Positions 5,804 to 16,186 of a stretch of 20,192 nucleotides of DNA are shown one piece after another. The translations under genes were made by a program, and so were the position numbers. The first letter of the stretch is position 1, and each line of letters begins with the position of its first letter. The stretch comes from a virus. Location: IMG/VR virus record IMGVR_UViG_3300025282_002201, positions 1-20,192 of that record, one strand, 5' to 3'. Under the pieces are notes generated by a model. It made no database searches. It worked only from the letters and a program-made list of their open reading frames with translations, and had not been told where the DNA came from.

Positions 5804-6541
5804 CTAAACGGTCCAGTCCCTGTTGGCCGTGACGAGCAGGTAGTCCACGTCCAGGTTCTCGATGGCATTACCCTTGGCCTCAACGCCAAGGCATACTCCC
5901 ATGACCGTGGTTGTGGATACTGCTCCTGTCTTGGTCTGCTTCAGGACGCCATCGATGTACCACCGGGCAGTGCCGTTGGTGTCGATTTCCAAACGAAGGA
6001 CCTGCCACTCGGCTGCGACGGCGTCGTCGTCAGCATCTACGCTAGTTGAGGTCGTCTCTCCCGTTGTACTGCCCCCGTTGTACACCATGTGCCAGTCCTC
6101 GTCGTCAGTAAGCTCTGCCGACAAGAAAAAACCACATAGATCAGACGCTGTTAACGTAAGCGTGGTGGTAGCACCCGTCATAACGTCAGTTTCAATACTG
6201 AGCGTATCCGGGTCTATGTCACTCAGGCCAAAGAACACCTCTTTCGTGTCTATGTTGTCAAGCTGGACACGGGCCTCCAGTACGATTGGCCCATTCAGGC
6301 TGGCGCTGAAAGCAGTGTTCGTACCTACCAGCGTTGTGTGGTTATCTTCGTTGGTCGTTGTTATGCGCCCAGCGCCACTGACCATGCCAGCAATGGTTGG
6401 GACCCCAGCGTCGGTCTCGGCGTTGCCCTGACCACCCACAACGAATGGGCCAAGGACCCGACTCTCTGCCGTGTTCGCTATGTTGTCCTCACCAAAGAAG
6501 TCGTAGAACAGTTCGATTCGTCCGCGATCACTCTGTGCCAT
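5804..6541 (-). CDS. LamG/concanavalin-like virion surface protein (putative capsid decoration)
   Basis: A 245-residue protein starts at ATG 6541 with AAGGGAG about seven bases upstream. It opens with ELFYDFFGEDN, then a Gly/Thr-rich region and strands such as PIVLEARVQLDNI and KEVFFGLSDID. The clearest motif is WQVLRLEIDTNGTARWYIDG (179-198) followed by LDVDYLLV (230-237), the back strands typical of LamG or concanavalin A-like jelly rolls. These domains bind sugars or proteins and are often found in phage surface proteins. The gene directly follows the major capsid gene, so a capsid decoration or head fibre role is reasonable; a tail role is the alternative. Only two Cys (136, 217) and no membrane segment are present. 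Confidence 0.8.
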   Translation of the reverse strand: MAQSDRGRIELFYDFFGEDNIANTAESRVLGPFVVGGQGNAETDAGVPTIAGMVSGAGRITTTNEDNHTTLVGTNTAFSASLNGPIVLEARVQLDNIDTKEVFFGLSDIDPDTLSIETDVMTGATTTLTLTASDLCGFFLSAELTDDEDWHMVYNGGSTTGETTSTSVDADDDAVAAEWQVLRLEIDTNGTARWYIDGVLKQTKTGAVSTTTVMGVCLGVEAKGNAIENLDVDYLLVTANRDWTV

Positions 6542-7521: not shown

Positions 7522-8313
7522 TTAAAGTGCGCCGAGCGCACGCCCGGCGTCTTGTACTTCTTTACTCCATGACACCTCGCCGCGCCCGTAAGCACTCCAC
7601 CGCTGCTCGGCAGTCATGCCGCCGGCGGTGCCAGATGAGCCTGGGGCCACGTTGAGTGTGCCGTTCCGACGTTGCTGGTTGACCTTGGACTTGCGTTGGT
7701 CGTCAGCTTCCTGCTGGACCTGGAGCCTGTCCAATGCCAACTGGTAGGCCGCATCGGCCCTATAGAACCCGCGCATGGCCTCCTGGACATTGCCTGACGC
7801 CCAGACTTGTCGGGCCTGCTCCCACTGGTTCCTGGCATTGGCAAAGCTCTCGCCGGTGATGTCGGTTTCCATGTCAGCAGCGCGGTCGGCTATCCTGGCG
7901 AGTATGCCCGATGTCTCGCCGACCAGGCCCTGGAGTTCTGTTTCGGTATTGACCGTAGCGACCTCTTGGCGGAACTGATCTGGGTCTGCGTCTGGGTCTG
8001 CCTGCTGCTTCACGAGAAGAGAGACATACTGTTCCAGTGGTTTAATCGCAAGATCAATCTCGCGCCTGATCGCAGACGATGAGCGCTCGCCTTCACGCTT
8101 CGGTTCATACCGCCCGAGCCTGGTCCTCGTCCGTTGATGCGCTAAACGCTCGTTAGCAAGCTCTTCAGAGCGCCGGTCAGCGAGGGACTTGTAGTCAATC
8201 TCGCCGTCATCTTGAAGAGGGGGTGCCTCTATCTGAGACTCGTCGTCAGCCTCTAGAGGGGTATCCTCCACTAAGGTAGCGTCGTCCAATACCTGCGTGT
8301 CTTCGTCTGGCAT
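7522..8313 (-). CDS. Capsid scaffold-like protein
   Basis: This 263-residue protein starts at ATG 8313, with AGGAG five bases upstream, contributed by the end of the leader repeat. The first 40 residues are very acidic (MPDEDTQVLDDATLVEDTPL). A long charged helical middle follows, rich in Arg, Glu and Gln (KSLADRRSEELANERLAHQ). The tail contains a Gly/Ser linker and ends GRGEVSWSKEVQDAGRALGA. An acidic N-terminus, coiled middle and short C-terminal helix form the usual layout of phage scaffolding proteins, which direct coat assembly and leave or are cut before DNA packaging. The gene is directly upstream of the coat gene, the standard position. No protease active site is visible, so I do not call it a protease-scaffold fusion. 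Confidence 0.78.
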   Translation of the reverse strand: MPDEDTQVLDDATLVEDTPLEADDESQIEAPPLQDDGEIDYKSLADRRSEELANERLAHQRTRTRLGRYEPKREGERSSSAIRREIDLAIKPLEQYVSLLVKQQADPDADPDQFRQEVATVNTETELQGLVGETSGILARIADRAADMETDITGESFANARNQWEQARQVWASGNVQEAMRGFYRADAAYQLALDRLQVQQEADDQRKSKVNQQRRNGTLNVAPGSSGTAGGMTAEQRWSAYGRGEVSWSKEVQDAGRALGAL

Positions 8314-8320
8314 CTCTACT

Positions 8321-8397
8321 CCTATCCGGGAGTTCCCATTGTGGGGTTTCCGAATAAGTCCTATCCGGGAGTTCCCGTATGGGGTTTCCGAATAAAT
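8321..8397 (-). repeat. Two tandem 38-39 bp repeats forming the scaffold/capsid leader
   Basis: Copy one covers 8321-8359 and copy two 8360-8397; they differ only at a few positions in the centre and end. On the minus strand each unit runs from TTATTCGGAAACCCC to GGGAACTCCCGGATAGGA. The last bases of the gene-proximal copy supply the scaffold ribosome binding site, and the distal copy carries a second AGGA. Each unit contains CGGGAACTCCCG or TGGGAACTCCCG, a short dyad able to form a tetraloop hairpin. The repeats begin where transcription from the candidate promoter would start. Confidence 0.85.
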
Positions 8398-8405
8398 CTA
8401 GCCTT

Positions 8406-8435
8406 TGTTTAGCATGACCCGTATCTACGTGTCAA
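8406..8435 (-). promoter_or_regulatory. Candidate sigma70-type promoter for the scaffold/capsid genes
   Basis: On the minus strand a perfect TTGACA (8435-8430) is followed after 18 bases by TAAACA (8411-8406). TG-C directly precedes the latter, as in an extended -10 element. The -10 hexamer matches the consensus TATAAT only partly. It sits in the 142-base gap after the giant gene, the only sizeable gap upstream of the capsid genes. The predicted start near 8399 falls at the edge of the tandem repeats. A dedicated capsid promoter is inferred. Confidence 0.5.
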
Positions 8436-8455
8436 GTAATGGCCCCGAATGCCCT

Positions 8456-11400
8456 TTATCCCTGATACCCGTATTTAGTCCTCATGAGGTCAAGGAACCC
8501 CGGTGGGAGGGGCCTTGCGGTCGGCGCCGGGGCCGCAGTGCCTCTCGGTGCAGTGGCGGTGGCTGGAACTGCGGGGCCTCGCAGTGGAGGGGACACGGCC
8601 CGCACCCCTGCGCCACCCAGCCATTGGTCCAGGGCTTGTTTTATCTGTTCGGGCTGGTGCTTTGGGACATTGCCGTACCACCGTCCGAGGAGGGCGTCCA
8701 GGAGGGCCGGGTGTTGGCCTGGGATGCCCTCTGTTCTCAGCCTAGCCTTTGCCCTCTTCGCCTGCCTCATGGCCCGTCTTGCCATGTGCCTCGTATGGCT
8801 ATCCTCGCTATTGAGAAGCTCCTCTCGTATAGCGGCAGTGCCTTTGGCATAGTTTCTTGCTATCGCTCTGTCTGCCGCAGTCGCGAACTTAGAGAGCACC
8901 GCTTCTGTCTCACCAACTTCCCAATAGGCTTCTATCGCTCCAAGCGCCCTGTAGTATTCCTGCTCAAGCTCTGTGCGCTCCCCAAGACCGCTGTTCCTGG
9001 AGATGTGCTCCTGTTCTACCAGGGTTCTCCTAGATAGCCACTGGTCAATCTCGTGCCAAGCGTCTGGGTCTAGTACGCCGCCGTGTTCTTCTTTTGCTTT
9101 ATCTACGCGCTCATAGTATTCATCCATAAGCGGATCAGACCCCTTCGGGAACTCCACGTCACGGCGCTTCTCGTCTATCTTGACGTGGAGTTCCGCCCTT
9201 CTCGTCTTCCGACGATTCTTCCATTCTTTGAGTTTCACCCTCCTGAGGGCCGGCGACTTAAAGGACGGATCGAGATACTGTTGGAAAGTGCGGTCGTCTT
9301 CGGCCTGCTCATCCAAAAACTCCGTCTGGTATATATTTATAGCTTCTCTGTCGCAAGCGCCCATATCCCCCTGCTGGCAGCGGATGACATCCTCTTGCTT
9401 TATCTCTTCCCTGAACCCAGGGTGCTTCTTCCAGAATTCAGATTTCTGTGCTGGGGTGGTGTCCCACCACCCCTCATTGAAGAGTTCTTTCGCCATCTGG
9501 TCCCGCTTGTCATAGACAGTCTCCGTAGAAGTCCTCGCGCCTAACCCACCGAGGAACGTTGAAAACCACGAGTCCCCTTCCATCTTGGCGTCCACCGCAA
9601 AGGGGGATAAGGCGGTGCCAGCGAAAGCAGCGACTTCGGGCAACGTGTCTATGTTGTCAAACGGGAGGATGTCCACCTTCCCCCCCATGAGGGCAGAGAG
9701 CGCCTCCACGCCGCCGCCAGCGAGGTGAAGAGCAGGGGCACCGCGTGAGTGCCACGCATAGATGAGCGGGTTTGCCTTCGGGTCTCGGCGGAGGAACACG
9801 CTTGGGTCTCCTGCTGACATCGCTAGCTTGGAGACGATCTGCAAGATCGACCTGACCTGCCCGCCGACCCCGATCCATTCCCCGTTGATATTGAGGCTAA
9901 GGAACTTCTTCCCTCCTAGAGGGTTCCACGATGTCTGAATCCTATCCCATATTTCTTCCCAGCTCTCGTTGTTAGCCCGTCCGATGGCAATGTTCGCCAA
10001 GGCAAAAAAGCCCCCAATGCCAAAGACGAGGCTCGCCATTGTTTTCGTTGACTCGCGCTGGGCAGCGTTTGCCCCTGGCCGCAGGCCGCGGATGGCATCG
10101 GTCATCAGGGCCATAGTGGAGCGGAAATATCTTGGGGAGAAGGCAAGCCACATCCCCTCGATATGCCGCTGGTTTGCGCCTACCCCAAGCGCCTTGGAAT
10201 CCAAGCCTCCCGTCATGTTTCGGATATACTGCGCCAGTTCACCCTTGCTCCCTTTCCACACTGCACGCGGCCCACCGTACCCCTTCGAGAGGGATTTCCA
10301 AAGCTCTGCCCGTGCCGTTGCAAGCCCCATGTCGTAGGAGGCTTGGAACCGGCCAAAGGACTGCTTCCCGATGCCCCTAAAGGTCTCTCTCATCCCCTTG
10401 CCGAATTGCTTCTCGACCATGTTCCCAAGGAAACTTATCCCCTGCCCTTCCCGAATGGCAGTGAACAGCTCCACGTCACCGACGGGAATGCCGTGGCGCA
10501 CCATATCCTGGAATACCTCCAGGTTATCCGAGAAGTACCGCGCCTGCACCGTGGGATCGAAAAACGCCTGATAGTGCTTGGCTGTCATCTTCGACCACAA
10601 GAGAGGGCGCGTCACTAGGAGCGGAAGACCCTGAAGGAACGGCATGGCAAAGTCCATAGTTGCTTGAAGGAACCGTGTATGGTTGACGACTTGCCCCAGC
10701 CCTCGGCTTATGGGTCCGCCTTCGATGCTGGCAACGCCAATACCCTCTGGGCCAATGCCCAGGGTCTCTTTCATGCGCTTGAGGTCTTCTTCCTTGAGAA
10801 ACCAATCTCTCCACTTTCGAATGGGGACATTCTCTGTTTGGTTGAATTCACTCCCAGGGAGGTATTTCACCTTCCTGCGCTGACGGTCAAGGTTCAGCTG
10901 TCTCCTCTTCAACTCCTCCGTCGCCTTGGCGATAGCGTCTGCATCGCCGGCTTCCACGGCGTCAGCCAGTGCCTTCTCTGCCTTAAAGTACCTTGTCTTG
11001 GTTAACTCGGGAACGTATTTATCAATCAGGGCTGGAGAAATACTATGCTTGCCTATCATCTCGTCGAACTGTTTCTCTATAATTTCTTGATAAGCGTCTA
11101 GGATGTGGAATTTAAGGGTCTCCATCGGGTCTTTGCTGTACTCGATTCCGTGTGCCATCCCCTGGGATACGGAATTGTACTGCCGGTCCAGGCTCGGGTT
11201 GGCCTTTGCCGCGTACCCCCGCCCATGCTCAGACATACTTCTGTGGGGGATATAGTATTTGTTCTTCAACCCCTTGGCCGACCCGGCACGGGGGGTGAGT
11301 CCGTTCCTCAGCCTCATCTCCTCAACCTGCTTAAGGACTTGCAGGTAGTCGTCCCGCAAGGCACGCTCGACATCACTGAGCACCGCATTCGGGTGTTCAA

Positions 11401-13222
11401 GCACACTCTGCCACGGGATAGACCTCTCTGCCCCTTCCTTAGCCTGCGTCGTTCCTATCCAGATGCCCTCTTTATTGACGGGGAACGGAGCCTCGCCTGG
11501 GCGCAGCGCCCGCTTAATCCCTCCAACGACCCCCGTGCGAATGCGCTCCAGGTGCCTGGCCCGAAACAGCGCCAAAGCGATATCGGCAAAGTCGACAGCT
11601 TTCTGCTGTTGCAGGCTGCGCGCAAGAAAGAGCTTCCTCAATCTGCCCCAGCCGACAATTGGGACCATTCCCCGTTTGACAATTTGCTCGACTACATTCT
11701 CGGATATGCGCTCAACCTTCCCACCAGGCCCAGTCCCCTCAAGTATGGGCCTAGCCTGTTTCGTCTCAAGCGCTGCCAGCTCATCCGTAACGGTACGAAG
11801 GTCTACTATCACGTCAGGTATCCCAAGCGCTCGCCTTGCCTCAGCCCCCTTCCCTGCTTTGGCAACCCCCTCCTTCATCCCATTAACATACGCCTTGAGT
11901 GCCTGGATGGACTTCTCTAGTTTTTGCTGTTCTGGGCCAAGCGGCAGTGGCCTTGCCCCTCGATGCACAACTGGCAAGGAGAGGAGTTGGCCTCGGTGTC
12001 GGTTAATCTGGCCCTGGAAGTCAGCGATAATCCTCTCTGCGTTGGGAATATCCAACGGGGTCCCCTTGGGCATCAGGCGGGCCATGTCCTCTGGGTGAGC
12101 CTGGGTGAGCATGGACTGCACAAACTTTCGGGTGATACCGCCAGTAGCCCCCTTGACCCAGGCAGTCCTCCCCAGCGTCCCAAAGGCTACCAGCGCTGGC
12201 TTCGTGGCGAGGCCAGGAAAACCGAAGATCGGGAGTATGTTCTCGGGAGCCAGGATTAGCTCCATTGCCCCTTGAACCCCCCAGGGTAGTTCCACCTCTC
12301 TAGACGCCCAGGTGGTCGACTGCAATACACCGTAGCCCTGGGCCATATACTGGTCTGCGATCCGCTCCATCTCGTGATCGCGAGGATCAACCTTCTGCAC
12401 CGCATAGACTAAGGCTGCGGTGGCCGGGACGGTGAGCGTCTGCTTTATTTCCTCTTGCTTTTCCAGGGCGGCTGTTGCCACCCCCTTGGCCGTTTCTATG
12501 CCGCGCAGCACGCCCACTTCTGCGAATTCCTTGGCCTGAACGTACTGCCTGAGCCGGTCCCGTTTTCCCTCTAGCTCTCTTGTATCCTCGCCAGCAGCCA
12601 GCGCTGTGACGATTTGCAACTCTATCGCCCTGCCGGTGGCCTCAAGCGTGCCGCCTTGATTTATCATCCAAGGTTCGTAGAGGTCTTCAGCAGTTTTCTC
12701 TTGCTTTTCCTTAAATTCTCGCTTCTTTTCTAACCCCTTTTCCGCAGCCTGGACGGCTTGTTGCAATGCCTGCACCCCCAGTGGGGTGTGATAGATCGGC
12801 TCGGCCCACTCCGCCCCTGGCCTCTCCAGTACCTCTTGTGCCTCTTCGTAGGCAGCAGTCGCCTCTTCCGGGGTCATTTTCTTGCCGCGGGCACCTACCC
12901 CCCACTGCATAGGGCCTCGCGTGACTTGCGCTACGGCAAAGGGGTCTGGCAAAGCAGCCCGCTCCCGAGCGACAGCAGCCCGCTCCTGGGAGGCAGCGAG
13001 TAGTTCCTCTTCTTCCTGGTACGCCTGCCTCCAATCGTCAGCGCCGGGTGCCGGCTGGGTCGGGGCTGGGCTGACCGCTGGCGTCGTGGGCAACTCATCC
13101 GCAAGTTTCTCTTTGCGGAACTTATCTTGCGCCCACTGAATGAACTCCTTTTCACGCTTGCTCTTTTCCGCGTCTATCGCTGAGTGCGGGACGAAAGAGG
13201 GAACATTATTATGTTTTTGCAT
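8456..13222 (-). CDS. Giant virion protein, putative ejection/internal protein (1588 residues)
   Basis: I choose ATG 13222 because AGGA lies eight bases upstream; the frame extends to a TTG at 13255 with no comparable site. The first 270 residues are helical and charged, with coiled-coil stretches (EKGLEKKREFKEKQEKTAED). Hydrophobic segments appear at about 322-350 (NILPIFGFPGLATKPALVAF), 854-875 (FAMPFLQGLPLLV) and 1059-1082 (LVFGIGGFFALANIAIG). FSPRYF near 1027 followed by a hydrophobic segment and VGGQVRSILQIV resembles patterns in large phage polyvalent or internal proteins. The last 50 residues are Pro/Ala-rich. Huge helical proteins with membrane-like segments encoded near the portal often travel in the capsid and are ejected with DNA in podoviruses. 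No enzyme motif is recognised. Function is inference; the gene is certain. Confidence 0.85.
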   Translation of the reverse strand: MQKHNNVPSFVPHSAIDAEKSKREKEFIQWAQDKFRKEKLADELPTTPAVSPAPTQPAPGADDWRQAYQEEEELLAASQERAAVARERAALPDPFAVAQVTRGPMQWGVGARGKKMTPEEATAAYEEAQEVLERPGAEWAEPIYHTPLGVQALQQAVQAAEKGLEKKREFKEKQEKTAEDLYEPWMINQGGTLEATGRAIELQIVTALAAGEDTRELEGKRDRLRQYVQAKEFAEVGVLRGIETAKGVATAALEKQEEIKQTLTVPATAALVYAVQKVDPRDHEMERIADQYMAQGYGVLQSTTWASREVELPWGVQGAMELILAPENILPIFGFPGLATKPALVAFGTLGRTAWVKGATGGITRKFVQSMLTQAHPEDMARLMPKGTPLDIPNAERIIADFQGQINRHRGQLLSLPVVHRGARPLPLGPEQQKLEKSIQALKAYVNGMKEGVAKAGKGAEARRALGIPDVIVDLRTVTDELAALETKQARPILEGTGPGGKVERISENVVEQIVKRGMVPIVGWGRLRKLFLARSLQQQKAVDFADIALALFRARHLERIRTGVVGGIKRALRPGEAPFPVNKEGIWIGTTQAKEGAERSIPWQSVLEHPNAVLSDVERALRDDYLQVLKQVEEMRLRNGLTPRAGSAKGLKNKYYIPHRSMSEHGRGYAAKANPSLDRQYNSVSQGMAHGIEYSKDPMETLKFHILDAYQEIIEKQFDEMIGKHSISPALIDKYVPELTKTRYFKAEKALADAVEAGDADAIAKATEELKRRQLNLDRQRRKVKYLPGSEFNQTENVPIRKWRDWFLKEEDLKRMKETLGIGPEGIGVASIEGGPISRGLGQVVNHTRFLQATMDFAMPFLQGLPLLVTRPLLWSKMTAKHYQAFFDPTVQARYFSDNLEVFQDMVRHGIPVGDVELFTAIREGQGISFLGNMVEKQFGKGMRETFRGIGKQSFGRFQASYDMGLATARAELWKSLSKGYGGPRAVWKGSKGELAQYIRNMTGGLDSKALGVGANQRHIEGMWLAFSPRYFRSTMALMTDAIRGLRPGANAAQRESTKTMASLVFGIGGFFALANIAIGRANNESWEEIWDRIQTSWNPLGGKKFLSLNINGEWIGVGGQVRSILQIVSKLAMSAGDPSVFLRRDPKANPLIYAWHSRGAPALHLAGGGVEALSALMGGKVDILPFDNIDTLPEVAAFAGTALSPFAVDAKMEGDSWFSTFLGGLGARTSTETVYDKRDQMAKELFNEGWWDTTPAQKSEFWKKHPGFREEIKQEDVIRCQQGDMGACDREAINIYQTEFLDEQAEDDRTFQQYLDPSFKSPALRRVKLKEWKNRRKTRRAELHVKIDEKRRDVEFPKGSDPLMDEYYERVDKAKEEHGGVLDPDAWHEIDQWLSRRTLVEQEHISRNSGLGERTELEQEYYRALGAIEAYWEVGETEAVLSKFATAADRAIARNYAKGTAAIREELLNSEDSHTRHMARRAMRQAKRAKARLRTEGIPGQHPALLDALLGRWYGNVPKHQPEQIKQALDQWLGGAGVRAVSPPLRGPAVPATATAPRGTAAPAPTARPLPPGFLDLMRTKYGYQG

Positions 13223-13232
13223 AAGGCCAGTC

Positions 13233-15695
13233 CTATGTGTAGGTGCGCCCACCAAGTGACTGTTGCTGCATCCTAACGGTCCGTCCTCGCGGGATGCCCG
13301 CGGGCTGGAAGGTCGTAAGGCCAGCCTCGCGCAGGAACGTCGCCCTCGGGATACCCGTGGCCTCTACGGCGGCAAGGAAGGTCTCCCGTTCCGTTGGGGT
13401 GAACTGTCGCCATGCCTGCATCGAAGGGAGCGTGACCCCTGCCAGGGGCGACAGTTGCTTCGGCGCACCGATGGCCTGCCCCAACACGCCAACCTTGTAG
13501 ATATTCGGGGCCTGCTTCTTCAGGAAGGTCTCCGGGGTGAGTCCCGCTCCGACCCCCTTCGGAATATTGGTTGGCGTTCCCGTTGCAGGCGTTGCATACG
13601 GGGCCGTTGGCGAACCTCCAGGGGCCTGGGGGATGGCGGGGGGTGCCGCCTTCTGGAACATCTTTTCCACTTGCTGCCAAGGCATGGCGGTCCCACCGCC
13701 TAGGTCAGTGACGCCGGGTGTATATGCCGTGGTTATCGGCTTGTCAGAAACAGAAGTAACCTTTGGCGCTAGATTGTACTTCTGGAGAACTGAAGTCGGC
13801 GCTGGGCCAAAGCTCATCTTGAATACCTTGCCGCTGGGGTCCCATCCACCCGTCCCCTTGCCGTACTTCATCGCAAGCGCCCCGCCCGTCAGGGCCTTTG
13901 CCGATTGGCCCAATTGGGCTGCTTGCTTTGGATTAAAAACCATTCCTCCCTCGGCAAACGATGGGATATCGTTAGCGGTAAGCCGCCTGTATATATTCAC
14001 GAGGTTCTCGGCCTGAGCGCGCTTCCGCGGGTCGAGTGGAACCACCATTTCTGGCCCCGTCTCGCCGAGTGTTGCCAGGGTTGGCCCGCGTACAATACCG
14101 CCCCCCGCATACTTCTTCCCCAGGCTTCCCATAGGCGCTTGGGTAAATTGGTAACCGCCGCCAACGTCGGTCGGCGCCAGCCCGTAGGGTTGCGGGACAT
14201 CCCCAAGCACCCACGGCGCGCCGGGTGGCGTCACGCTTGCGCCGGGTGGCGTCACGCTTGCGCCAAGGTCAACTACGCCAGACGGCGCAAGGGGTTGCGG
14301 GATATCTCCAGGCCCCAAAATCACCGGAGGTGTAAATTGTCTCCGTTGTGTGCTAAACGGGTCTACCTCGCCCCCGCGGAACGTTACTTTTTCCTCGGCG
14401 GCGAGCTTGCGAAGATATTCATCCATAGAGGCAACGTCTGACATTGAGCCAGCTTTGGCCTCTTCGACGGCCTGCGCGTCTGCTAACGCTTGGGCCTGTT
14501 GGGCTTGAAGCAGCGCGTCCAGCCCCACAAGGTCAGTGTCGGCGAACTGTGTAGCGGCCTGGTGGGCCTGTTGGGCTTGAAGCATCTCGTCCAGCCCCAC
14601 AAGGTCCATTGGGCCTTCCTGGGCCTTTACGAAAGCCTGCTCGTCGGCCAGCCTACGCCGTGCCCTATCTTCGTCGGCTTGTTGCCTACGAAGCATCTCG
14701 TCCAGCCCCACAAGGTCCATTGGGCCTTCCTGGGCCTTTACGAAAGCCTGCTCGTCGGCCAGCGCTCGGGCCTGCTCGTCTACCCCAGGCGCTGCGGGCG
14801 GGGCTATAAGCCCAAGGCGCTCAAATAGGTTCGTGATCGTCTGCGACCCACGAGGCCCGATACCACGAAACGCCCCTGTATACCCAGGTTGCTGGATAGG
14901 AGCAGCGCCTGACTGAAGCTGCATCAAGGTAAAGAAGTCAGCGGGGCTGCGAGAGATTTCGAGGGCCTGCTGCAAGCCCTGCTGGTTTATCTGACGTGAC
15001 TGGAGTTCGAGGGCCTGACGCTGGTACGGCGTCATCTGGTTTTTGAACTCCCACAGCTTCAACGCTGAGGCCATCTTTCCTTCTTGAACCAACAGGTCCG
15101 CTATTTGCTGATCGATGGTCGGGCCTGCCTCGTACCCTGGCTCTTCATACGGCCTGATGCTCCCATCTGGCTGGCGTATGAAAAGCCGCCCCTCCAGGCC
15201 GGGGGCACCAAGCTCTTCGCCGGTGATGATCTCAGCGGGGATAACCTCGGCGGGGACTTTCCCTGGCGGGACATACTCCCACCCTCCGTACTCTCCCCCT
15301 CGTTCGTAGAACATCCCCCCGCCTGGGCCTCCGACAATTCTGGGGCCAGTAGTAGCCGCGGCCTGCTGGGCTGCGATGGTCTGCTGGGCTGCGATGTTCG
15401 CGCTCACCTGCTCTTTCAACTCCTCAGGCCAAACTATCGGGTCGCCCTCCCAGTCGATTTCCCCCTCGATTGAAGCCTGTTTTAACATTGAAGCCTGTTT
15501 TAACAGTTGATCGGGGTGCGAAGGCAAGTTCAAATCCTCTACAACCCTGTTGGCTTTTTCCAGCGAATCAAGCGGCAGAGGAAAGCCACCGGGGAATTCG
15601 GGGCTGGAAAGGAGAAAGCCGCCCTGCGTATTGGGGTCTCGCTCCAGCACATGGCCGTAGGTCGCAAGGAGTGCTCGGAGTTGCTCGAAGGTCAT
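13233..15695 (-). CDS. Repeat-containing 820-residue virion protein with tape-measure-like motif
   Basis: ATG 15695 overlaps the previous stop as ATGA, with AGGAGG six bases upstream. The N-terminal region contains a tandem LKQAS repeat and Gln/Ala-rich stretches. A helical region (about 185-250) follows. Residues about 311-372 hold two copies of a 37-residue-period unit containing AFVKAQEGPMDLVGLDEML, plus a diverged third. A Pro/Gly linker leads to GGGIVRGPTLATLGETGPEM and VVPL near 530-553, then FAEGGMV. The Gly-Glu-x-Gly-Pro-Glu-x-hydrophobic-Pro-Leu signature is typical of tail tape measure proteins. Here the gene lies between portal and scaffold, and long hydrophobic segments are missing, so I favour an ejection or internal protein sharing this motif. 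The last 11 bases before the next ATG carry that gene's ribosome binding site. Confidence 0.8.
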   Translation of the reverse strand: MTFEQLRALLATYGHVLERDPNTQGGFLLSSPEFPGGFPLPLDSLEKANRVVEDLNLPSHPDQLLKQASMLKQASIEGEIDWEGDPIVWPEELKEQVSANIAAQQTIAAQQAAATTGPRIVGGPGGGMFYERGGEYGGWEYVPPGKVPAEVIPAEIITGEELGAPGLEGRLFIRQPDGSIRPYEEPGYEAGPTIDQQIADLLVQEGKMASALKLWEFKNQMTPYQRQALELQSRQINQQGLQQALEISRSPADFFTLMQLQSGAAPIQQPGYTGAFRGIGPRGSQTITNLFERLGLIAPPAAPGVDEQARALADEQAFVKAQEGPMDLVGLDEMLRRQQADEDRARRRLADEQAFVKAQEGPMDLVGLDEMLQAQQAHQAATQFADTDLVGLDALLQAQQAQALADAQAVEEAKAGSMSDVASMDEYLRKLAAEEKVTFRGGEVDPFSTQRRQFTPPVILGPGDIPQPLAPSGVVDLGASVTPPGASVTPPGAPWVLGDVPQPYGLAPTDVGGGYQFTQAPMGSLGKKYAGGGIVRGPTLATLGETGPEMVVPLDPRKRAQAENLVNIYRRLTANDIPSFAEGGMVFNPKQAAQLGQSAKALTGGALAMKYGKGTGGWDPSGKVFKMSFGPAPTSVLQKYNLAPKVTSVSDKPITTAYTPGVTDLGGGTAMPWQQVEKMFQKAAPPAIPQAPGGSPTAPYATPATGTPTNIPKGVGAGLTPETFLKKQAPNIYKVGVLGQAIGAPKQLSPLAGVTLPSMQAWRQFTPTERETFLAAVEATGIPRATFLREAGLTTFQPAGIPRGRTVRMQQQSLGGRTYT
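14220..14261 (-). repeat. Tandem 21-bp repeat inside the 820-residue gene
   Basis: Two exact 21-base copies (14220-14240 and 14241-14261) encode a doubled Gly-Ala-Ser-Val-Thr-Pro-Pro unit in the linker before the tape-measure-like motif. Identity at the DNA level suggests recent duplication. Confidence 0.9.
14579..14763 (-). repeat. Two identical 74-bp direct repeats inside the 820-residue gene
   Basis: The copies at 14579-14652 and 14690-14763 are identical base for base, with a 111-base (37-codon) period. Each encodes a unit containing ADEQAFVKAQEGPMDLVGLD. A shorter, diverged copy of the Asp-Leu-Val-Gly-Leu-Asp part begins near 14509. Perfect DNA identity points to recent duplication or gene conversion. 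Confidence 0.92.
15469..15504 (-). repeat. Tandem 18-bp repeat near the start of the 820-residue gene
   Basis: Two exact 18-base copies (15469-15486, 15487-15504) encode the doubled Leu-Lys-Gln-Ala-Ser unit around residues 64-75. The reading frame is kept. Confidence 0.9.
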
Positions 15696-16186
15696 GGCAT
15701 TCCTCCTGGCATGGGGCCGGCTGCGGGCATTGGTGGCATCCCACGCGGCCCACGCGGCCTAGGTCCTGGTCCTGGCATCCCCCCAAGCATGGGCGGCATT
15801 CCGCCTGGCATGGGTGGCATACCGCCTGGCATGGGTGGCATACCGCCTGGCATACCTCCCGGCATACCTCCCGGCATACCGCCCGGCGGGCCTCCAGGCT
15901 GGGCCTCCTCTTCGGGCGGTGCGGTCATAGCGCCGAGGTCGCTCATAATCTGGCTGACCCCCAGCTCGTCGATCATCCGCTGCCGCATCTCCGGGTCAAG
16001 CTGCCCCCACATCTCCTTACGCTGTTCGATGGGCATCTTGCGCCACTGGGCCACAAAGTCCCTAAAGGAGCTGATCTTGTCATAGCCGGGCGGTATGGGG
16101 TTCGCATTGACGATAGCGTCTGCCTGCTGCCCCATACGTCCAACGACTCTATCAGCGACACGAGAGGTAAAAGATGGTTCTGCCAT
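15692..16186 (-). CDS. Small protein with Met-Pro-Gly repeat tail, downstream of portal
   Basis: I choose ATG 16186, whose A is the last base of the portal stop codon (TAATG), giving 164 residues starting MAEPSFTSRVADRVV. The frame continues to an upstream GTG at 16228, but that would overlap the portal gene by 43 bases and has no better ribosome site. Residues 1-90 are helical and charged (FRDFVAQWRKMPIEQRKEMW, then EMRQRMIDELG). From about residue 95 the protein becomes low complexity: Gly-Gly-Met-Pro and Gly-Gly-Met-Pro-Pro-Met-Pro units to the C-terminus. The gene ends in an ATGA overlap with the 820-residue gene, and the last repeat codons double as its ribosome binding site. It may be a portal-associated or internal minor virion protein. 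No family is recognised. Confidence 0.75.
   Translation of the reverse strand: MAEPSFTSRVADRVVGRMGQQADAIVNANPIPPGYDKISSFRDFVAQWRKMPIEQRKEMWGQLDPEMRQRMIDELGVSQIMSDLGAMTAPPEEEAQPGGPPGGMPGGMPGGMPGGMPPMPGGMPPMPGGMPPMLGGMPGPGPRPRGPRGMPPMPAAGPMPGGMP
15788..15886 (-). repeat. Tandem 21-bp and 12-bp repeats coding the Met-Pro-Gly tail
   Basis: Three 21-base units (15788-15808, 15809-15829, 15830-15850) are followed by three 12-base units (15851-15862, 15863-15874, 15875-15886). Units within each set differ by at most a base or two. All lengths are multiples of three, so copy number can change without breaking the frame. Confidence 0.92.

Follow-up and report, generated by a model that had tools for sequence, protein, structure and literature searches.

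The scaffold–capsid locus

The window, by which we mean the whole stretch of DNA analysed, is a complete virus record of 20 192 bases with a G+C content of 60%. Because the minus strand carries its large genes, the leader region reads from 8455 down to 8314, in a gap bounded by the stop of a 1599-codon open reading frame (ORF) and the ATG of the scaffold gene (Table 1). Searches with the 1599-codon ORF matched nothing in Pfam or PHROG, whereas the terminase large subunit of the window has a clear PHROG match (E 7e-72). A nucleotide search of phages with the window gave no match, and a search for relatives among bacterial genomes found none.

Identification of the major capsid protein is supported by distant sequence similarity to the protein annotated as major capsid protein in Pelagibacter phage HTVC111P (tblastn, E 3e-7; hhalign, 97.6%, E 4.5e-12). 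The AlphaFold model of the window capsid is uninformative (pLDDT 28), and the identity thus rests on profile similarity; a sequence search of the PDB was empty. The scaffold is assigned from its position. Profile comparison with the HTVC111P scaffold detected no similarity, and the scaffold proteins of the relatives described below share 28–32% identity with one another.

Elsewhere in the window, a 245-aa gene (5804–6541, minus strand) with weak similarity to phrog_6368 is located 3' of the capsid gene, and its counterpart in one relative (L008 5236–5973) is placed between scaffold and capsid, suggesting that the head module has been rearranged. An 820-aa gene (13233–15695) has weak tape-measure matches; short tandem repeats lie in and next to it (15773–15899 and 14218–14264), comprising arrays of 12, 21 and 24 nt and a 21-nt repeat that is exact.

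Table 1. Positions of the features of the scaffold–capsid leader in the window and of terminators in its relatives
Feature	Position	Strand	Basis or remark
Upstream 1599-codon ORF	8456..13255	-	stop precedes promoter (ORF list)
-35 box TTGACA	8435-8430	-	exact consensus
Spacer CGTAGATACGGGTCATGC, 18 nt	8429-8412	-	between -35 and -10-like boxes
-10-like box TAAACA	8411-8406	-	TGC directly before (extended -10)
Predicted transcription start	8399..8400	-	inferred from boxes, ~7 nt past -10
Repeat unit 1 GATTTATTCGGAAACCCCATACGGGAACTCCCGGATAG, 38 nt	8398-8361	-	TRF; RNA hairpin 8395-8361 by folding
Repeat unit 2 GACTTATTCGGAAACCCCACAATGGGAACTCCCGGATAG, 39 nt	8360-8322	-	TRF; RNA hairpin 8358-8321 by folding
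Scaffold Shine–Dalgarno AGGAG	8323-8319	-	sequence; 5 nt to ATG at 8313
Scaffold gene, 263 aa	7522..8313	-	assigned by position, directly 5' of capsid gene
Major capsid protein gene, 289 aa	6637..7506	-	similarity to HTVC111P major capsid protein
Intrinsic terminator between TTGACA promoter and scaffold gene	L002 5045-5199		
Intrinsic terminator, same placement	L008 4246-4395		
Intrinsic terminator, same placement	L013 5088-5248		
Intrinsic terminator, same placement	L109, upstream of scaffold		

A conserved promoter and a virus-specific duplication

The first-pass annotation of the gap had described a perfect TTGACA, an 18-base spacer and a TG-extended −10-like hexamer, and all three are present on the minus strand. 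Together they agree with a sigma70-type promoter (TTGACA and a TATAAT-like hexamer, 16–18 nt apart) with a weak −10, since TAAACA matches TATAAT at 3/6 positions. A generic promoter scan of the window did not list this site. The near-repeat TA(A/G)ATACGGGT occurs in the promoter spacer (8417–8427) and, 50 bp away, at the end of the upstream gene (8467–8477); these copies may be of chance origin.

Capsid searches yielded usable leaders from about 25 distinct contigs, whose capsid identities to the window range from about 80% down to 39%. Among the representative relatives whose leader is covered and whose scaffold start could be placed (capsid identity at least about 62%, the window included), TTGACA is found 61–151 nt 5' of the scaffold Shine–Dalgarno sequence (SD) in 13/13. 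In contrast, it precedes none of 102 other SD-bearing genes at the same loci, a count that leaves out one match, the L002 scaffold mis-called as another gene. TTGACA is also present in L109 (capsid identity 45%), and it is absent from before the scaffold gene in L112 and L078 (39–41%) and in HTVC111P. Most relatives have a −10-like hexamer 17–18 nt past TTGACA (TAAAGT, TATAGA, TATATT, TATCAT and TATTAT, among others), which in most cases is better than that of the window. The sequence around the promoter is unrelated between lineages. A dedicated promoter for the scaffold and capsid genes is therefore well supported by this comparison of sequences, and the earlier proposal that the capsid genes have their own promoter is borne out by the contrast between 13/13 relatives and 0/102 controls. 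Comparison of the homologous gap revealed no closer relative in which TTGACA and the repeats were both absent.

The predicted leader RNA, about 87 nt long, is filled from the predicted start (~8399) to the SD by two near-identical units of 38 and 39 nt, the second of which supplies the scaffold ribosome binding site, just as the first-pass annotation had it. The array has a TRF score of 131 with 92% matches and so is not a chance occurrence. Of the four columns at which the units differ, three belong to the apical loop and the fourth to the base. The same duplication exists in two further contigs (L010/L012 being one, L011 the other), which are 99.86–99.94% identical to the window and differ from it by up to 17 mismatches. 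The duplication is therefore not an assembly artefact.

The exact duplicated motif occurs only in these near-identical contigs of the window virus, and leader comparison found no second copy of the unit in relatives outside it. Having no counterpart in any relative, the duplication was rejected as a general functional feature. Thus, the part of the earlier reading that gave the capsid genes a promoter of their own stands, and the part that took the duplicated unit itself for a functional element (translational enhancer, RNA switch or operator) is unsupported, the candidate now being the single hairpin inside the unit.

Several other identities for the repeat were discarded. Its alternative folds (0.64 tandem, 0.35 cross-paired) could be taken for a two-state RNA switch, but such a pair follows automatically from duplicating any hairpin. 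A known riboswitch or RNA family was rejected, as a search of Rfam 15 gave no covariance-model match over the gathering cut-off. The dyad CGGGAACTCCCG, a possible DNA operator, is present in unit 1 and almost so in unit 2, and unlike the RNA hairpin it is not kept in relatives. Neither unit is followed by a T-run, and the window leader accordingly contains no intrinsic terminator.

A hairpin beside the scaffold Shine–Dalgarno sequence

The first of the two predicted window hairpins begins some 4 nt past the predicted transcription start and is separated by two nucleotides from the second, which is the counterpart of the single hairpin of the relatives. The 3' arm of the second takes in AGG of the scaffold SD, and these A, G and G have unpaired probabilities of about 0.04–0.36 in the window fold. 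Most lineages have a predicted hairpin that abuts or closely precedes the scaffold SD: it is seen in the window, L002, the L008 group, L013, L028, L031 and L075, and in a group comprising L015, L020, L022, L027, L030 and L127 (the L022 group). Its forms include CUGGC-CUA-ACC-AAU-GGU-UUGA-GCCAG in L008, UUUUGGC-AGU-CCC-ACA-GGG-UAA-GCCAGAA in L028, UUCGG-CGGUU-CCC-GAAU-GGG-CCGUU-CCGGA in L002 and GGUUA-GGGCA-AUUA-UG-A-CCC-U-UAACC in the L022 group. L017 has the promoter and lacks the hairpin, which is thus dispensable.

A 44-nt stretch about the scaffold SD folds more stably than expected from its composition, with a mean z-score of −1.86 compared with −0.33 for other genes (Mann–Whitney p 2.6e-5), and with the scaffold leaders of nine lineages ranging from −3.7 to +0.1. 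Taken one by one, the leaders have modest z-scores against dinucleotide shuffles (−1.45 in the window). Comparable hairpins exist at 16/102 other genes, and because the relatives are akin to one another, counts overstate independence. Very stable hairpins are also predicted before other gene starts in L075, near 5219 and 4402 (z −5.2 and −2.5), indicating that SD-side hairpins are not restricted to the scaffold gene.

Between lineages, in an alignment fitted to the structure, the innermost pair of the outer stem changes between G-C and C-G and the third pair between C-G and G-C, both in a compensatory manner. Within the L022 group a C-G/U-A double change is compensatory and slide controls are clearly worse; the score was reached by 17/500 shuffles, and the lower A-U stem extension fails in L015, L020 and L127. 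The apical part of this group, GGGCA-RUUA-UG-A-CCC, is fixed in all members, which were partly collected by that motif (five had been found earlier by capsid search), and the stem below it varies, partly by compensation. Conservation of the apical loop beside the SD holds within the L022 group and not across lineages. Only in seven of the 65 viral matches to the pattern GGGCARTTATGACCC are TTGACA and an SD both in place, and these seven are scaffold leaders; the others look like chance.

The compensatory changes and the folding bias give moderate, not overwhelming, support for the hairpin. In about half of the distinct leaders most of the GGAG core is predicted to be unpaired, and predicted accessibility of the SD is low in L008, L075 and L017.

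Possible roles of the leader and comparison with known systems

Our preferred explanation, held tentatively and by analogy, is that the leader stabilises mRNA and presents the SD, its hairpin having been recently duplicated. A sigma70-type promoter would serve the scaffold–capsid operon alone and produce a short leader RNA, in which a small two-part hairpin fronts the SD. This hairpin would slow decay of the capsid mRNA, as in the T7 gene 10 leader, and would keep the SD at the foot of a defined stem, so that scaffold and capsid output is raised late in infection. A recent tandem duplication in the window virus would then have given the stretch from start site to SD a pair of hairpins, of which the second would most likely have little or only a modest dose effect. 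According to published work, the stem-loop of T7 gene 10 stabilises mRNA and, when it lies 5' of an SD, increases output (PMC2254391, PMC6146998). The comparison established where the promoter lies, that it is conserved and that a hairpin recurs adjacent to the SD; a similar action of the hairpin in the window virus is what we infer. In favour of this explanation also count the folding bias, the compensatory stem changes, the fact that three of the four differences between the window units fall in the apical loop, and the largely open GGAG core of about half of the leaders. Against it, the 3' arm over AGG of the SD would lower initiation in the window unless melted, and the low predicted SD accessibility in L008, L075 and L017, the lack of a hairpin in L017, the similar folds at other genes, the modest z-scores and the weak −10 also count.

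The main rival is a translational operator: the scaffold, the capsid or an RNA-binding protein of the phage (a Com-like zinc ribbon, for example) would bind the SD-adjacent hairpin and tune scaffold translation, the operator being doubled in the window virus. The fixed apical part over a changing lower stem in the L022 group is as expected of a sequence-specific binding site, and the window SD is partly inside the stem. In two branches, moreover, the promoter directly follows a Com-like zinc-ribbon ORF, namely in the L008 group (L008 4107–4274; phrog_6417 ‘translational regulator’, 1.8e-4) and L109 (1722–1895; phrog_6417, 9.4e-5; PF10122, 3.4e-4, under the Pfam cut-off). There are also precedents. 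The scaffold of P22 is subject to post-transcriptional autoregulation. In phage Mu, translation of mom is activated by Com, which binds a hairpin beside a translation-inhibition structure (PMC6483171), and T4 gp43 regulates its own synthesis through an RNA operator that takes in a hairpin and a sequence that overlaps the ribosome binding site (PMC3014915). However, the loops vary from lineage to lineage, about half of the relatives have a free GGAG core, and the Com-like matches elsewhere are under the Pfam cut-off. The window contig, possibly a fragment, has no match to PF10122. We regard an operator as somewhat unlikely.

It is also unlikely that, behind a real promoter, the leader structure is unselected or mere spacing and the duplication a product of neutral replication slippage. 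Such a by-product would accord with the restriction of the duplication to one virus, the hairpin-free leader of L017, the 16% of other genes that fold similarly and the automatic origin of the two repeat folds, but not with the better folding of scaffold leaders as a set or the compensatory stem changes.

In L002, the L008 group, L013 and L109, a structured stretch that ends in a hairpin and T-run follows within about 65–80 nt of the promoter, before the scaffold SD (folding z −2.7 to −4.7), a promoter–terminator stretch with the layout of an attenuator or a short RNA gene. L112 and L078 also have terminators before the scaffold SD. If such a terminator gates capsid transcription in the four relatives, the window leader could be a relic or variant in which it was swapped for a second hairpin; this is very unlikely, because without T-runs intrinsic termination is not expected at the window units, and the L015, L022, L028 and L031 types likewise lack them. 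Directly 5' of the scaffold ATG of L109, a terminator-like hairpin has the scaffold SD (GGAGG) in its 3' arm, and this single hairpin could block transcription and translation alike. HK022 put is a cis antitermination RNA, and two hairpins two nucleotides apart, starting almost at the predicted 5' end, might by analogy act on RNA polymerase in the same way, but this is barely credible given the single hairpin of relatives, the lack of an Rfam match and the terminators retained in relatives' leaders.

A broader conjecture, quite unlikely as a whole, is that these uncultured, apparently marine phages set scaffold and capsid dosage by a fast-evolving leader-RNA module between promoter and SD. In some phages the module would consist of one hairpin abutting the SD, in others of a hairpin together with a terminator (as an attenuator or short RNA), and in others of a hairpin in duplicate; a Com-like zinc-ribbon regulator, encoded next to the module, would read it in some branches. 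Scaffold and capsid proteins are needed in bulk and in ratio, and a fixed promoter with a variable SD-side hairpin offers a small, testable model of how a phage with no RNA polymerase of its own sets this output. The terminators and neighbouring Com-like ORFs hint at actual regulation, which, if true, would be of greater interest than the duplication.

In sum, a true promoter is followed by an SD-side hairpin that is probably functional and of a known kind, and the duplication of this hairpin is specific to one virus, where it is probably a small elaboration on a layout like that of T7. The first-pass annotation knew of no described element with this layout, but the T7 gene 10 leader has a similar order of capsid-dedicated promoter, 5' stem-loop near the transcript start and strong SD downstream (PMC2254391, PMC6146998). 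The window leader likewise has its own promoter before it and a predicted stem-loop near the predicted 5' end, 5' of the SD. The likeness is one of layout and not of sequence: T7 gene 10 uses a T7 RNA polymerase promoter, whereas that of the window is of the host sigma70 type, and the window hairpin, unlike that of T7, is flush with the SD, fronts the scaffold gene and is duplicated. The gene 43 operator of T4 and RB69 is also a phage-leader hairpin 5' of an SD and, like the leaders of the L022 group, has an apical loop conserved within a clade; it belongs to another gene class, its loops do not match, and the window hairpin is a putative binding site at most. The Mu Com/mom system resembles the leaders in having hairpins around the SD, with a Com-like zinc-ribbon ORF directly upstream in two relatives, and differs in that no mom gene was noted, no Com-like gene was detected in the window contig and the scores are under the Pfam cut-off.
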